Source: Bacteroidales bacterium
Lineage (GTDB): Bacteria > Bacteroidota > Bacteroidia > Bacteroidales > VadinHA17
Reading direction: 5' to 3'
Length of the DNA stretch: 64,000 nucleotides
Assembly: GCA_003141895.1 (NCBI GenBank)
Contig: PLNT01000011.1
Span: 109,112-173,111, forward strand
The notes beneath the pieces were generated by a model. It was not told where the DNA came from, made no database searches, and worked only from the letters and a program-made list of their open reading frames with translations. Position 1 is the stretch's first letter. Every line of letters starts with the position of its first letter. Positions 16,616-56,462 of this stretch are shown one piece after another. The position numbers and the translations under genes were made by a program.

Positions 16616-16824
16616 TGTGAAATTTCGAAGTCACACTTTTAGTAACAAATTCAGCCTTTTTTTGTTATGGTTACCCCCTTTCATTTTCCCCCAAGGGGGA
16701 AAAGTTTAGCTACACCTTCCCCCTTGGGGGAAGTCCCGATGGCTATCGGGAGGGAAGGGGGTCTTAGACTGTAAAAAATCTATATCATTAAAACTAATGT
16801 AACTATAATTTTGAAGAATTTCAG
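16616..16824. mobile_element. MITE-like element, copy D (approximate bounds)
   Basis: Core TACCCCCTTTCATTTTCCCCCAAGGGGGAAAAG...CCTTCCCCCTTGGGGGAAGTCCCGAT-GCTATCGGGAGGGAAGGGGGT with degenerate terminal inverted repeats. Confidence 0.6.
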
Positions 16825-23408: not shown

Positions 23409-23515
23409 CGCAATTTCGACCCCCCAACCCCCCTAAAGGGGGGCTAATTCAGTAATATTAAAAAACAAGAATAAAAACAAGATTTACCCCCCTTCAGGGG
23501 GGAAGGGGGGCAAAC
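23409..23515. repeat. Intergenic REP-doublet/MITE-like element
   Basis: GACCCCCCAACCCCCCTAAAGGGGGGCT ... TTACCCCCCTTCAGGGGGGAAGGGGGGCAAA. Confidence 0.75.
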
Positions 23516-35816: not shown

Positions 35817-35885
35817 CTATTAACTGATTTTTTTATCCTAAAATTTTCATATCCCCTTTTTTTTTTGTTTCTTTGCACCTTATTG

Positions 35886-35945
35886 AACAAGTGGAAAGAT
35901 TTGAGCTGATTGCAACCACAGGAAAAAAATGCTAAACCACGTACG
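35886..35945 (+). promoter_or_regulatory. SAM-II-like riboswitch aptamer upstream of metK
   Basis: GTGG-aaaGATTTgagctgATTGCAA-CCAC-aggaaaaaaat-GCTAAA: the GATTT-N6-ATTGCAA block, closing stem and N11-GCTAAA spacing match the SAM-II core as I recall it. Confidence 0.75.
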
Positions 35946-37387: not shown

Positions 37388-37520
37388 AAGATGACGACCC
37401 CCTGCCGCTACGCTCCCGATAGCTATCGGGATGTCACCCTAAAGGGGACTAATTCTGTGACCTTCTTGAAATTACTGAAAGAGAGAGATTCAGCCCCCCT
37501 TTAGGGGGGTTGGGGGGTCG
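37388..37520. repeat. Intergenic REP-doublet/MITE-like element
   Basis: GACCCCCTGCCGC...CCCGATAGCTATCGGGATGTCACCCTAAAGGGGAC ... CAGCCCCCCTTTAGGGGGGTTGGGGGGTC. Confidence 0.75.
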
Positions 37521-43601: not shown

Positions 43602-43849
43602 CTTGCCTACCGTGTAATTCTTCAAAATAAAGGTAACATATTAATTCTTGCTTCGTTAACCTTTAATTTGCATTTGTGTTTCATCAACCTACCCCCTTCC
43701 CTCCCGATAGCTATCGGGCCTTCCCCCACGGGGGAAGGAGCAAAATCATCCTTTCCCCCGTGGGGGAAATAAGAAAGGGGGTTATTTAAGTAGAAAACCA
43801 CTGGTTTCTGTTACCAAAATTCTGAAGTATTACACTACCGGCAGGCAGG
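43602..43849. mobile_element. MITE-like element, copy B
   Basis: Terminal inverted repeats GTGTAATTCTTCAAAATAAAGGTAACA / TGTTACCAAAATTCTGAAGTATTACAC around the core ACCCCCTTCCCTCCCGATAGCTATCGGG...GGGGGAAATAAGAAAGGGGGTT. Confidence 0.75.
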
Positions 43850-43872: not shown

Positions 43873-45261
<1,389 letters not shown>

Positions 45262-45363
45262 TTACAAATCAAATTTTACCGGCACATGCACATAGGCATG
45301 AGCGGCATGATAAAGTTGTTGTGTGTTAAATGAAAAGAATTCATGTTTTTTCGTGTTAAATTT

Positions 45364-45472
45364 TTATCATCTCCCGGCTTTCCGGGATTAGGTATTGGCA
45401 CCGTTCTCCTGAATATTCAGGATTGGTTGCCAGGGTTTCTCAGAGCCTAATCTCTCCACCCTTCTTAATAAA
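45364..45472 (-). promoter_or_regulatory. SAM-I (S-box) riboswitch upstream of metY
   Basis: Reverse complement TTATTAAGAAGGGTGGAGAGATTAGGCTCTGAGAAACCCTGGCAACC...ACGGTGCCAATACCTAATCCCGG...CCGGGAGATGATAA follows the S-box consensus. Confidence 0.95.
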
Positions 45473-45611
45473 AACCAAACACCCTATAGGAAGGATTATT
45501 TGATTTGTGGGGACAAAAATAAAAAAGAATTTCTTAAACTCCAAATAATTTTGAGATTACCCCCTGTTTTTTTGGTTTATATGTCTTTTTTATTGTTTTT
45601 TGTTACAATGA

Positions 45612-45794
45612 GTCCGATAGCAATGTAATTCTTCATAATTGCTGTAACAAATCTAGCCTTTTCTAAGATATTTACCCCCTTTCAATTTCCCCCAAGGGGG
45701 AAAGGTTTTGCTATGCCTTCCCCCTTGGGGGAAGTCCCGATAGCTATCGGGAGGGAAGGGGGTAATCTGAAAAGAATTACACAGCTATAGGGAC
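45612..45794. mobile_element. MITE-like element, copy C (shorter)
   Basis: Ends GTCCGATAGCAATGTAATTCTT / AAGAATTACACAGCTATAGGGAC; core TACCCCCTTTCAATTTCCCCCAAGGGGGAAAG...CCCGATAGCTATCGGGAGGGAAGGGGGTAA. Confidence 0.7.
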
Positions 45795-45862: not shown

Positions 45863-47344
45863 ATGCAGAATAATCTTTTCATCTACAACACGCTTTCAAA
45901 GAAGAAAGAACAATTTAAACCGCTTCATCCTCCATTCGTTGGAATATATGTATGCGGACCTACTGTATACAGCCATGCTCATCTCGGCCATGCCCGCCCT
46001 GCAATCACTTTTGATTTATTATTTCGTTACCTCACACATCTTGAATACAGGGTGCGGTACGTAAGAAATATAACTGATGTCGGCCATCTTGAAAATGAGA
46101 CACTTGGTGAAGGCGAGGACCGGATAGAAAAGAAAGCAAGGCAGGAGCATCTTGAACCAATGGAAGTTGTCCAGAAATATGTGAACACTTATCACAGGAA
46201 CATGGATCAGCTTAACACTCTCTCACCATCAATTGAACCAAGAGCCACCGGACACATAATTGAGCAGATTGAACTTATTAAGATTCTTATCAAAAATGGA
46301 TATGGCTATGAGTCAAATGGCTCAGTGTATTTCGATATCCTGAAATATAATGAGAAATATAAGTATGGCAAACTCTCAGGAAGAGTTCTTGAAGATCTGA
46401 TCAGCAATACCCGCGATACCGAAGGAAAAGACGAAAAACGCAATCCTTTTGACTTTGCTCTGTGGAAAAAAGCGAGTCCTGAGCATGCTATGAGATGGCC
46501 TTCACCATGGAGTGATGGTTTTCCGGGCTGGCATCTTGAATGTTCAGCCATGAGTATTAAATATCTTGGAGAAGTATTTGATATTCATGGGGGAGGAATG
46601 GATCTCCAGTTTCCTCACCATGAGTGTGAGATAGCACAATCTACCGCTGCTCTCGGAAAGGAATCAGTTCGTTACTGGATGCACAATAATATGATTACAA
46701 TTAACGGTCAGAAAATGGCCCGATCACTTGGTAATTTTATAACGCTTGACCAGCTTTTCACTGGCAATCATCCGGTTTTAGAGCAGGCTTATTCTCCCAT
46801 GACTATCAGGTTCTTTATCCTGCAGGCTCATTACCGGAGTACGGTGGATTTTTCAAATGAAGCTCTCCAGGCCGCTGAAAAAGGATTTCTGAAACTTATG
46901 AAAGGTATTGAATCCCTGAAGAAAATTAAACCTTCAGATCAGTCTACATTTGACATCAAAGGGTTTAGAGAAAAGTGCTATGCAGCTCTTGATGATGATC
47001 TTAACAGCCCGGTATTATTATCTCATCTGTTTGATGGAGTGAGATTTATTAATTCGGTACTGGATGGCAGTGAAAAAATCGATGCGTCCGGTCTTGATGC
47101 ATTAAAGGATCTTTTCAACACATTTGTCTTTGACCTTCTTGGATTAAAAGATGAAACTACAGGTGCAGCTGATGACAAGCTGATGGATGAGTTGATGAAA
47201 ATTATTATCGATCTCCGGCAGGAAGCAAAAAATCTCAAACAATTTGAAGTTTCTGATAAAATAAGAAAAGAACTTAATAATATCGGGATAACATTAAAGG
47301 ACACGAAAGATGGGGTTTCTGATTGGGAGAAAAACCCCCTATGA
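45863..47344 (+). CDS. cysS: Cysteinyl-tRNA synthetase
   Basis: [39 protein letters not shown]. Confidence 0.97.
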
Positions 47345-47419
47345 TCCCCCCAAGGGGGGATAAAATTCTGGAAATAACGAAAATTGGACTCAAGAAAGAT
47401 ATGTCCAAGATTCACTTCT

Positions 47420-47460
47420 AAGAATTCCCCTCCTACGGAGGGGTTAGGGGTGGGTTTAAG
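47420..47460. repeat. Left inverted repeat flanking the DUF559 gene
   Basis: AAGAATTCCCCTCCTACGGAGGGGTTAGGGGTGGGTT; inverted partner at 47881-47923. Confidence 0.85.
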
Positions 47461-47513
47461 TAGAACTAGAAACTTTGGAAATGAAAAGTTTTATGATTCT
47501 ATATTAATATAAA

Positions 47514-47933
47514 ATGGAAAAATCAATAAAAAGAAAAGTAATCCCGTATAATCCTGAACTAAAAGAACTTGCAAGAAGGCTTAGAAAAAATATGACTTTA
47601 TCAGAAGTTCTTCTCTGGAATGAATTAAAACAGAAACAGATGCTTGGTTATGATTTTGACAGACAGCGCCCCATAGGTAACTTTATAGTCGATTTTTATT
47701 GTAAAGAGCTCTCTCTGGCAATAGAAATTGATGGTAAGACTCACTTTTATAGATATGATTCTGACGAAGAGAGACAAAAAGCGCTAGAAAAATTAGGGGT
47801 AAAATTCCTGCGATTTGAGGATATTAAAATCAAAAAGGATATGTTAAATATTCTCAGGATTATAGAAGATTGGATTCGTAAAAACCAACCCACCCCTTCC
47901 CCCTCCGTCGGAGGGGAATGCTTAGCAGAATGA
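47514..47933 (+). CDS. DUF559 (Vsr-like, PD-(D/E)XK-type) endonuclease-domain protein
   Basis: LRKNMTLSEVLLWNELKQKQMLGYDFDRQRPIGNFIVDFYCKELSLAIEIDGKTH; C-terminal NQPTPSPSVGGECLAE is encoded by the right inverted repeat. Confidence 0.9.
   Translation: MEKSIKRKVIPYNPELKELARRLRKNMTLSEVLLWNELKQKQMLGYDFDRQRPIGNFIVDFYCKELSLAIEIDGKTHFYRYDSDEERQKALEKLGVKFLRFEDIKIKKDMLNILRIIEDWIRKNQPTPSPSVGGECLAE
47881..47923. repeat. Right inverted repeat flanking, and inside the 3' end of, the DUF559 gene
   Basis: AACCAACCCACCCCTTCCCCCTCCGTCGGAGGGGAATGCTT; reverse complement aligns to 47420-47460. Confidence 0.85.
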
Positions 47934-47950: not shown

Positions 47951-49792
47951 ATGGCATTCTATACATCCTCAGTTATTAACATTGGCCCTATCCCTCTCGG
48001 TGGTGACTTTCCCATCCGTATACAGTCAATGACTAACTCCGATACACTCGATACAAAAGCATCTGTTGCCCAGTGTATACGGATTATTGAGGCAGGAGCT
48101 GATTTTGTACGACTAACCGCACAGGGTATAAGGGAGGCAGAGAATCTTGCTGTTATAAAAAAGGAACTTCGCAAATCAGGATATTATACCCCTCTGATAG
48201 CTGATATCCATTTTAATCCCGCCGCTGCAGAAATAGCTGCCCGGCTGGTTGAAAAAGTCCGGATTAATCCGGGCAATTATGCTGATAAAAGGGCATCCTT
48301 TGAAATAAAGGAGTTTACTGATAGAGAATATGAAGAGGAACTTGAGAGAATTCACACTAAACTGTTTCCCCTGATAAATATCTGCCGTGAGAATAAAACT
48401 GTTATACGAATCGGAATAAATCATGGTTCTCTCTCAGACAGGATAATGACCCGGTTTGGCAATACACCTGAGGGAATGGTTTTCTCTGCACTTGAGTTTA
48501 TCAGAGTATTCAGGTCAGAGAACTTCGAAGATCTCGTGCTTTCAATGAAATCGTCTGACACAGCCGTAATGATACAGGCTACCCGGTTACTGGTAAAGAT
48601 GATGCAGAGCGAACACCTGTCCTATCCGTTACATCTTGGTGTTACTGAAGCCGGAGAAGGTGAGGATGGAAGAATCAGATCTGCTGCCGGAATAGGGGCC
48701 CTGCTGGCTGAAGGTATTGGCGATACGATACGGGTTTCTCTTTCAGAAGATCCGGAAAAAGAAATTCCGGTTGCACAGCAGCTTGTTGATTTTTATCCGA
48801 GAGGAATTTCCGCTAAGTCCCCTCCAGAAATGGTTACATTTAAAACTCCATCGGTCAAACCTGAAATTCTAAAGAGTGTAAATGGTCCGCTGGTTATCTC
48901 TGATCTGACATCGTTTCCTGTATCCCGGACAGACATATATGAGCATGCAGGATTTATTTATGATCCGGTTTCTTTGCAACTTCGTAAAACAGACGGTTCT
49001 GCAGATCTGATATTAATTAATAACCGTCCGGATAAAATTCCTGAAAATGTTCCTCTTTTAGTTCCGGAAACAAACTGGAATGAGAAGGAGGATAACAAAA
49101 CTTATCCGGTGTTCTCTCCGGAAACTTTTTCTGAAACTGTTACAAAATCCGGAAAACTAAATATTCTGATAACCGATCCTTCAGTAAATAATGCATATCT
49201 GGAAACTCCAGATACCGATACGACACTTTTAATCTTCAGCTTTGATACTGAAAAATCGCTTTACGAAGCTGATTATTTTCTCAATTCTCTGGAAAAAAAT
49301 AACCTTAGATTTAATGTAATACTCAGTCCTCTGTTTCATGAAAACAATCTTGAAGCACTTCAGATCAAGGCTTCAGCACTTCTTGGCCGCTATGTTCTGG
49401 ATAAAAGGATTGCGGGGATTTGTATAAGAAATACAGGGCAAGTAGAATGCAAAACCGTTACTACTCTTTCATTTTCAATACTTCAGTGCACCGAAACCCG
49501 GATTACAAGAACAATGTATTTGTCCTGCCCTACATGCGGCCGTACAAAATTCAATCTGCAGGAATCGGTCAGAAAAGTAAAAGAAGCGACCGGGCATCTG
49601 AAAGGGCTCAAAATAGCAATAATGGGATGCATCGTAAATGGTCCCGGGGAAATGGCAGGTGCGGATTATGGTTATGTAGGCGCAGCTGCTGGTAAGGTTC
49701 ATATTTATAAGGGAACAATACCGGTCCTGAAGAATGTGCCTGAGGAAGTGGCTGTGAAGGAATTGTTGAAGGTGATTGAAAAGGATTATTAA
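47951..49792 (+). CDS. ispG: 4-hydroxy-3-methylbut-2-enyl diphosphate synthase (long, insert-containing form)
   Basis: IRIQSMTNSDTLDT, LGVTEAGEGEDGRIRSA, CPTCGRTKFNL, IAIMGCIVNGPGEMAGADYGYVG; 613 aa. Confidence 0.95.
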   Translation: MAFYTSSVINIGPIPLGGDFPIRIQSMTNSDTLDTKASVAQCIRIIEAGADFVRLTAQGIREAENLAVIKKELRKSGYYTPLIADIHFNPAAAEIAARLVEKVRINPGNYADKRASFEIKEFTDREYEEELERIHTKLFPLINICRENKTVIRIGINHGSLSDRIMTRFGNTPEGMVFSALEFIRVFRSENFEDLVLSMKSSDTAVMIQATRLLVKMMQSEHLSYPLHLGVTEAGEGEDGRIRSAAGIGALLAEGIGDTIRVSLSEDPEKEIPVAQQLVDFYPRGISAKSPPEMVTFKTPSVKPEILKSVNGPLVISDLTSFPVSRTDIYEHAGFIYDPVSLQLRKTDGSADLILINNRPDKIPENVPLLVPETNWNEKEDNKTYPVFSPETFSETVTKSGKLNILITDPSVNNAYLETPDTDTTLLIFSFDTEKSLYEADYFLNSLEKNNLRFNVILSPLFHENNLEALQIKASALLGRYVLDKRIAGICIRNTGQVECKTVTTLSFSILQCTETRITRTMYLSCPTCGRTKFNLQESVRKVKEATGHLKGLKIAIMGCIVNGPGEMAGADYGYVGAAAGKVHIYKGTIPVLKNVPEEVAVKELLKVIEKDY

Positions 49793-52316: not shown

Positions 52317-52420
52317 ATTGTGACACCTCTCCCCAACCCCTCCCCCAGGGGGGAGTGGCTTGAAACAACGGTTTTATTCCCCCTTCTCTCCTGGGAGAAG
52401 GGGGTAAGGGGGATGAGGTT
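52317..52420. repeat. REP-doublet/MITE-like element between the pqqD-like and kinase-like genes
   Basis: CACCTCTCCCCAACCCCTCCCCCAGGGGGGAGTGG ... ATTCCCCCTTCTCTCCTGGGAGAAGGGGGTAAGGGGGATGAGGT. Confidence 0.75.
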
Positions 52421-56278: not shown

Positions 56279-56462
56279 TTACCCCCAAACCCCCTAAAGG
56301 GGGCTTAAAAAAAAGTTGTCAGGGGTGAGGTAGATCAAAAAAAAAGCCCTCCTCTCAACGGGCCTTTTATATGAGCCTATGTTTATTTTGATGAAGAGCA
56401 TGTAAGAACCCTAAGCCCCCCCTGCCTACCGGCAGGCAGGCATATGGGGGGTTGGGGGGTCT
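56279..56462. repeat. REP-doublet/MITE-like pair enclosing the terminator of the giant gene
   Basis: ACCCCCAAACCCCCTAAAGGGGGCTT ... AAGCCCCCCCTGCCTACCGGCAGGCAGGCATATGGGGGGTTGGGGGGTCT. Confidence 0.7.
56336..56364 (-). terminator. Probable intrinsic terminator of the giant T9SS cargo gene
   Basis: On the minus strand AAGGCCCGTTGAGAGGAGGGCTTTTTTTTT. Confidence 0.6.

Follow-up and report, generated by a model that had tools for sequence, protein, structure and literature searches.

A DUF559 nuclease gene enclosed by inverted palindromic ends: a probable mobile element that may scatter short repeats in bacterial genomes

The cysS-ispG locus and its nuclease

How did a gene for a Vsr-like nuclease come to lie between cysS and ispG, enclosed by two inverted copies of a palindrome? 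In the initial annotation of the window (i.e., the whole stretch of 64,000 nucleotides that was analysed) it had been claimed that inverted repeats bracket a 139-aa DUF559 open reading frame. The two repeats are indeed present, at 47420-47456 and 47887-47923, and the right one is an inverted copy that encodes the C-terminus of the protein, as had been stated, even though it starts at 47887 and not at 47881. The features of the locus are the following:

45863..47344, + strand: cysS, left neighbour of the DUF559 gene
47334..47365, - strand: ACCCCCTATGATCCCCCCAAGGGGGGATAAAA, a remnant, in this gap, of a second type of element; it overlaps the stop of cysS
47420..47456, + strand: left end unit, AAGAATTCCCCTCCTACGGAGGGGTTAGGGGTGGGTT, of which 47427-47453 is a perfect unit of the mirror grammar described below; its parts are an outer tail AAGAATT, the hairpin CCCCTCC-TAC-GGAGGGG (47427-47443), the spacer TTA and the third-strand arm GGGGTGG (47447-47453) plus GTT
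47514..47933, + strand: DUF559 (PF04480) PD-(D/E)XK/Vsr-like nuclease ORF, 139 aa
47887..47923, - strand: right end unit, inverted, with hairpin CCCCTCC-GAC-GGAGGGG, spacer GAA and arm GGGGTGG; the unit itself is 47890-47916
47951..49792, + strand: ispG, right neighbour of the DUF559 gene

The two ends share one layout, CCCCTCC-n3-GGAGGGG-n3-GGGGTGGGTT, in two inverted copies; in the left one the arm points toward the nuclease gene, and the DNA of the right one (NQPTPSPSVGGECLAE) codes for the nuclease C-terminus NQPTPSPSVGG. The element is about 0.5 kb long here. The pattern GGAGGGGNNNGGGGTGGGT occurs at 11 sites in the 4.0 Mb genome and its reversed control at none; since, in addition, the flanks of neighbouring genes (n = 179) never reach such inverted-repeat scores, the end pattern cannot be ascribed to chance. 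The relic sequence, ACCCCCTATGATCCCCCCAAGGGGGGATAAAA, recurs in the congener G017, where a DUF559 element has it as its left end, and there is a near match in G011.

The 139-aa ORF matches Pfam DUF559 (PF04480) with an E value of 1.3e-28 and 99.5 bits, the curated cut-off being 20.6. Residues E31, D60, E71, D73 and H77 are invariant among the 37 relatives compared, and the median dN/dS of DUF559 is 0.10 (30 pairs). A profile search of the PDB retrieved 3hrl (an endonuclease-like protein of Neisseria; 4.9e-29) and 3r3p (the homing endonuclease I-Bth0305I; 4.8e-4), the same structures that head a fold search with the predicted model (pLDDT 83), in which Vsr (1vsr) is far weaker; the catalytic domain of I-Bth0305I compares with the DUF559 fold at a TM of 0.80 by target. 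The window nuclease is thus predicted to have a PD-(D/E)XK-type fold with an acidic/histidine active site, and, judging from profile and modelled fold, the DUF559 nuclease is related to the homing endonuclease, an enzyme that dimerises on a target of nearly 60 bp (review PMC3943268). One DUF559 gene was earlier termed EDxHD-like (PMC9403480). A role in a defence system was also considered and rejected, PADLOC having given weak matches alone (E 1.8e-4 and higher).

Palindromic ends at other DUF559 genes

According to the initial annotation, the idea of an element would fail if other DUF559 genes lacked such flanks. They do have them, both in this genome (G000) and in several phyla. All six DUF559 genes of G000 lie between inverted G+C-rich palindromes whose sequence differs from pair to pair; for instance, CCCTTCCCTTAAACAATAAGGGAAGGG flanks copy L006 on both sides, and the ends of copy L001 are CCTTCCCCCACGGGGGAAGG and TTTCCCCCTTGGGGGAAA. 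For a larger survey, we scored the best local inverted repeat between the 300 bp upstream and the 300 bp downstream of the DUF559 domain, with cut-offs of 26 and, more strictly, 30, in a sample of 252 DUF559 genes that covered Bacteroidota and further phyla (two overlapping collections, so that a few loci are repeated). Matched inverted ends were found at 203 of the 252 genes (81%) vs 6 of 179 neighbouring genes (3%), and scores of at least 30 at 179 (71%) and at none, respectively. Within the same genus and order, 61/70 genes score at least 26, compared with 13/748 random positions; in the wider Bacteroidota and other phyla the figures are 76/106 and 33/1307 controls. The ends are matched in Desulfuromonadia (21/25), Gammaproteobacteria (14/15) and Patescibacteria (15/21), with controls at 2-5%, and the package of nuclease and palindromes is thus present in many bacterial phyla. 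About 19% of the DUF559 genes, many of Acinetobacter among these, are without a clear end pair.

The sequence of the ends tracks that of the nuclease, even across genera. Indeed, the comparison of ends and nuclease identity over 122 loci gave a Mantel r of 0.58 (best of 2000 permutations, 0.08), and an r of 0.44 (permutation maximum 0.10) was obtained with pairs from different genera only. As an example, the Pontibacter end AATTCCCCTCCTCGGAGGGGTTAGGGGTGGGT (L110) is nearly equal to the window end, the two proteins being 65% identical. The direction of the arm, toward the gene or outward, is inherited as well, with 19 changes on a poorly resolved tree vs 37.5 with shuffled labels (0/500 shuffles as low).

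Structure of the ends

The end classes read, on the G strand, as a pyrimidine stem, a loop, a purine stem, a spacer and a third segment (the arm). The arm repeats the purine stem in mirror order, G being retained and A either retained or changed to T. The stem and arm pairs include GGAGGGG and GGGGTGG in the window, AGAGGGG and GGGGTGT in L117, AAGGAGGGG and GGGGTGGTT in L036, GGGGGAAA and AAAGGGGG in L008, AAAGGGGGG and GGGGGGATT in L168, and GGGAGAGG and GGTGAGGG in L300. In some classes the spacer holds a further hairpin (CCCGATAGCTATCGGG in window doublets). This rule was first noticed on visual inspection, and the ends that had suggested it also served to test it; 199 of these 253 ends are perfect mirrors. 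Among the 191 informative ends, that is, those with an interior A and a non-symmetric stem, a perfect mirror was observed in 154. The corresponding counts are 25 if stem and arm are read as a direct repeat, 24 with permuted stems and 16.5 with the stems of other ends; a direct-repeat relation of stem and arm, as produced by slippage, was rejected on this count. Opposite a stem A, in a register set by G only, the arm carries A 228 times, T 256, G 32 and C 28 times (A or T in 484/544).

G.G-C, A.A-T and T.A-T are the triads of the antiparallel purine-motif triplex. Since the arm mirrors the purine stem, a single-stranded end could fold as a hairpin, the part that folding tools model, with an intrastrand (reverse-Hoogsteen) triplex, and it is possible that such a triplex forms and is what the nuclease recognises. 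The stem-arm rule predicts that a single A/T change in the stem should need a matching change in the arm. A G-quadruplex was discarded as the common rule, as most classes have, by inspection, too few G runs for a unimolecular one. In the open-access literature we found no description of this end grammar.

Insertion between and within genes

Comparison of the cysS-ispG gap among related genomes indicates that the DUF559 gene was inserted there and is not ancestral; the second condition under which, according to the initial annotation, the idea of an element would fail does not therefore apply either. The gap is empty in 14 of 18 same-genus genomes, and in these 14, as well as in two genomes of the order, cysS and ispG are adjacent, 5-113 bp apart. 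Among the genomes of the genus and order that were compared, only G000, G017 and G011 have a DUF559 gene in the gap, and the genes of the latter two belong to another subfamily, about 38% identical to the window gene and with ends of the type ACCCCCTATGATCCCCCC. Some of the 14 gaps have a single short palindrome in the start of ispG, and most of the empty ones are without a doublet. In the congener loci L186, L187, L189, L200 and L206 the single palindrome is part of the translated N-terminus of IspG (e.g. TCCTCCTCCCGGGGAGGGTC). The gap of the congener G007 (L208) holds a 23S_rRNA_IVP gene (PF05635, 8.1e-13) with the repeat TATTATCGATTATAGGCGATAGGCGATAG on one side and CATCGCCTATAATACATAATACAT, inverted, on the other; this may be a further case of a gene enclosed by inverted repeats.

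In other genomes, whole units with both palindromes translated lie in frame inside LeuRS, MetH, HsdR, HsdM and HsdS, and Pfam confirms DUF559 within all five. The LeuRS insert, studied in one genus, is present in G054, G443 and G434 and absent from 13 other genomes; at the DNA level about 11 loop codons have been replaced, and each junction lies at the outermost arm base. In the congeners without the insert this site is palindrome-free, which suggests that the whole unit reached LeuRS together. The MetH insert is present in four genomes and absent from more than 20. On these comparisons the mobility of the element is well supported.

A comparison of 153 elements with shuffled pairs revealed no excess of target-site duplications, nor did any other scar of insertion come to light, and transposition of the DDE type (insertion sequence or MITE) was rejected on this ground, with the exception of G307. 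In that genome (L296, L315, L320) the unit is wrapped in a longer terminal inverted repeat, CAAAGGTATCTACACAAGTTGGTAACAAC, and L315 has a 10-bp direct repeat, GGTGCAGATT; given this outer repeat and the duplication in one copy, another transposase may move that unit. A search of plasmids for strain pairs with and without the insert gave 38 diverged matches, none above 60% identity, and no usable pair in the four regions inspected. Many DUF559 copies abut contig ends, as is expected of repeats. Type I restriction genes repeatedly contain in-frame units, in Bacteroidota, Desulfuromonadia and Gammaproteobacteria alike, namely in HsdM (L275, L278), HsdS (L304) and R-type proteins (L081, L083, L123), which may reflect either a bias or no more than tolerance.

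Gene-less units and doublets

The window contains 13 complete units of the mirror grammar, compared with 0-1 in shuffles. Those away from the nuclease gene include the following, no strand being assigned except for the last:

16674..16761: gene-less inverted doublet whose ends match those of the G000 copy L001; an additional hairpin, CCCGATGGCTATCGGG, separates the purine stem from the arm
23419..23514: gene-less inverted doublet, CCCCCC/GGGGGG class, no good match among the six DUF559 copies
37460..37518: gene-less unit with a degenerate left partner, no good match among the six copies
43692..43781: gene-less inverted doublet, both halves matching the L001 ends (the L001 element minus its gene)
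45675..45762: gene-less inverted doublet, L001 class
52325..52417: gene-less inverted doublet, class of the DUF559 copies L003/L004
55360..55449: gene-less inverted doublet, L001 class, fitting both L001 ends
56281..56303, - strand: single unit, CCCCCT/AGGGGG class, no good match among the six copies

The doublets near 23.4k, 37.4k, 52.3k and 56.3k had been regarded as endonuclease-free relatives of the window element. They are real and have the same layout, but they carry other palindrome sequences and belong to other end classes, and hence are not deletion forms of the window DUF559 gene. Those near 16.7k, 43.7k, 45.7k and 55.4k are additional to the ones listed earlier. Genome-wide, 11 sites are of the window's own class (class A). 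They comprise the gene-bearing copy, one inverted doublet whose halves are separated by 34 bp, two units in tandem and some six solo units.

In three genomes that lack DUF559 the sampled 406 kb contained 3 units, vs 39, unevenly spread, in 813 kb of four genomes with the gene. Indeed, G020 has 12 DUF559 matches yet no doublets in the sampled 81 kb, and G011 has few despite the gene; the presence of DUF559 does not therefore predict the repeat load, and a simple dose relation between copies and load is not clear in the sampled genomes. G020 also has several copies of internally truncated DUF559 elements (L070-L074), resembling amplified deletion derivatives. In Picosynechococcus plasmids (L237, L238) a DUF559 gene lies amid several CCCC..GGGG palindromes, in arrays that differ between the two strains. 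The window further contains a SAM riboswitch (45361-45474, - strand) upstream of a sulfhydrylase-like gene (43873-45198) and a SAM-II riboswitch (35885-35945, + strand).

How the elements might move

Comparison among genomes shows the unit structure, its mobility, the co-variation of nuclease and ends, the mirror grammar and the existence of gene-less derivatives. The explanation that we consider probable is that of an autonomous mobile element, in which a DUF559 gene is carried between inverted foldable ends that its own nuclease recognises, is inserted with the help of repair and gives rise to derivatives without the gene. The end, as single-stranded DNA, would fold into a hairpin plus an intrastrand triplex; the PD-(D/E)XK nuclease would probably recognise its own class of folded end and nick or cut there, most likely in the single-stranded state; host repair might then copy or join the unit elsewhere without a target-site duplication. 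Doublets and solo units that carry no gene would be non-autonomous derivatives relying on a matching nuclease. The absence of target duplication and the replaced LeuRS codons fit a repair-mediated insertion; the action of the nuclease on the ends, the cut-and-insert chemistry and the mobilisation by the DUF559 nuclease itself are what we infer from the whole.

The main alternative is a selfish gene of the homing type, whose nuclease cuts pre-existing gene-less doublets of its class so that repair copies the gene into their spacer, the palindromes themselves spreading in some other way. The closest experimentally named relative of the enzyme is the catalytic domain of I-Bth0305I (3r3p), gene-less doublets of matching class that could serve as targets stand beside gene-bearing copies, target-site duplications are lacking, and target specificity would also produce the co-variation of ends and nuclease. 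It is the less likely of the two, all the same; against it stand the LeuRS site, which is palindrome-free in insert-free congeners and appears to have received a complete unit in place of about 11 codons, and the empty cysS-ispG gaps, most of which are without a doublet. Homing into gene-less doublets could nevertheless act alongside repair-mediated insertion.

A clearly improbable reading is that the palindromes are moved by a host or phage enzyme, for example through replication template switching at hairpins or triplexes, while the DUF559 protein rides along or protects them, as in Vsr-like repair of hairpin mismatches. The wrapping of the G307 unit by another terminal repeat is in agreement with it, as is the Vsr-like nickase activity proposed as the role of Caulobacter VsrA, a DUF559 protein (PMC12907096); it leaves unexplained, however, the subfamily-specific end sequences kept across genera and the 81% of DUF559 genes, vs 3% of others, that lie between such ends. 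The reading in which the gene is ancestral and the palindromes beside it are ordinary transcription terminators, or G+C-rich intergenic hairpins due to chance, can be given almost no credit, for, terminator-like as their position past the gene ends may be, the ends are matched inverted pairs missing at neighbouring genes, the gene is absent from most congeners, whose cysS-ispG gap is empty, and the units within LeuRS, MetH and HsdM have both of their palindromes translated in frame, in places where a terminator cannot be.

Comparison with known systems

The autonomous element that we favour recalls the REP/REPIN/RAYT (TnpA-REP) system, and the analogy that had been drawn earlier between the two holds structurally: in both, palindromic units occur singly and as inverted doublets, and a single enzyme gene stands between two units that match. 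Furthermore, in both the unit sequence co-varies with the enzyme, the units are often intergenic and no target-site duplication is found. Unlike RAYT, an HUH Y1 transposase, the DUF559 enzyme is a PD-(D/E)XK hydrolytic nuclease, and its units carry a third-strand mirror arm, no GTAG tag, and also occur in frame inside proteins. No Y1 HUH transposase was found between units, where Pfam at 1e-3 gives DUF559 and otherwise just the related MTES_1575; the GTAG/CGTC tag of REP does not occur at the window unit, whose flanks are AAGAATT and the GGGGTGGGTT arm. The best reading is that of a REP/RAYT-like logic built on an unrelated hydrolytic nuclease.

The EDxHD homing endonucleases (I-Bth0305I) share with DUF559 a related catalytic domain, by profile and fold, and a selfish pattern of spread, but the DUF559 units have no intron or intein, an additional DNA-binding domain is lacking, palindromic ends enclose the gene, and complete units appear to reach sites that are free of palindromes. 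Vsr nicks DNA at mismatches. Vsr and the DUF559 repair-type nucleases (E. coli Vsr, 1vsr; Caulobacter VsrA) have superfamily and family name in common with the window gene, which differs in having no cytosine methylase partner next to it (its neighbours being cysS and ispG) and in being multi-copy, variably present and provided with mobile-type ends. The palindromic elements of Rickettsia (RPEs), which to our knowledge carry no nuclease gene, are alike by description in that their palindromes lie in frame in host proteins. Such in-frame units have been documented inside Rickettsia protein genes (PMC10969869). In the open-access literature, the field covered by our search, no paper tying DUF559 to palindromic or triplex repeats was found.

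The package of nuclease and palindromes has the look of a selfish DNA family, little known so far, by which short palindromic repeats are spread. If this idea is correct, it would provide a function for DUF559, mostly annotated as unknown or repair, and identify the mobiliser that has been missing for a type of palindromic repeat widespread in bacteria. It would also add another enzyme type, unrelated to the first, to the REP/RAYT kind of repeat economy, and offer a biological case with an intrastrand DNA triplex as the probable recognition signal. The in-frame copies in LeuRS, MetH and type I restriction subunits show, moreover, that a mobile palindrome can end up as part of a protein.

Potential intrastrand triplex (PIT) elements have reportedly been described in E. 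coli and other bacteria, by Hoyne and Maher in J Mol Biol around 2000-2002, and we know of no mobilising gene assigned to them. They have the same grammar of a hairpin plus a third strand; in the DUF559 elements, by contrast, end class and nuclease subfamily go together. A wider proposal, which we advance tentatively, as plausible but rather less than probable, is that of a phylum-spanning class of elements in which a Vsr-like nuclease reads hairpin plus triplex ends and spreads itself and gene-less repeats without target duplication, with in-frame insertion in essential proteins, the bacterial PIT repeats being their relics. In E. coli, the 3' end of the DUF559 gene ycjD (L236) consists of one unit of the mirror grammar, the opposite end seeming to have been lost, and matching units lie at ycjD in the E. 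coli genomes that were listed (H39-H48).
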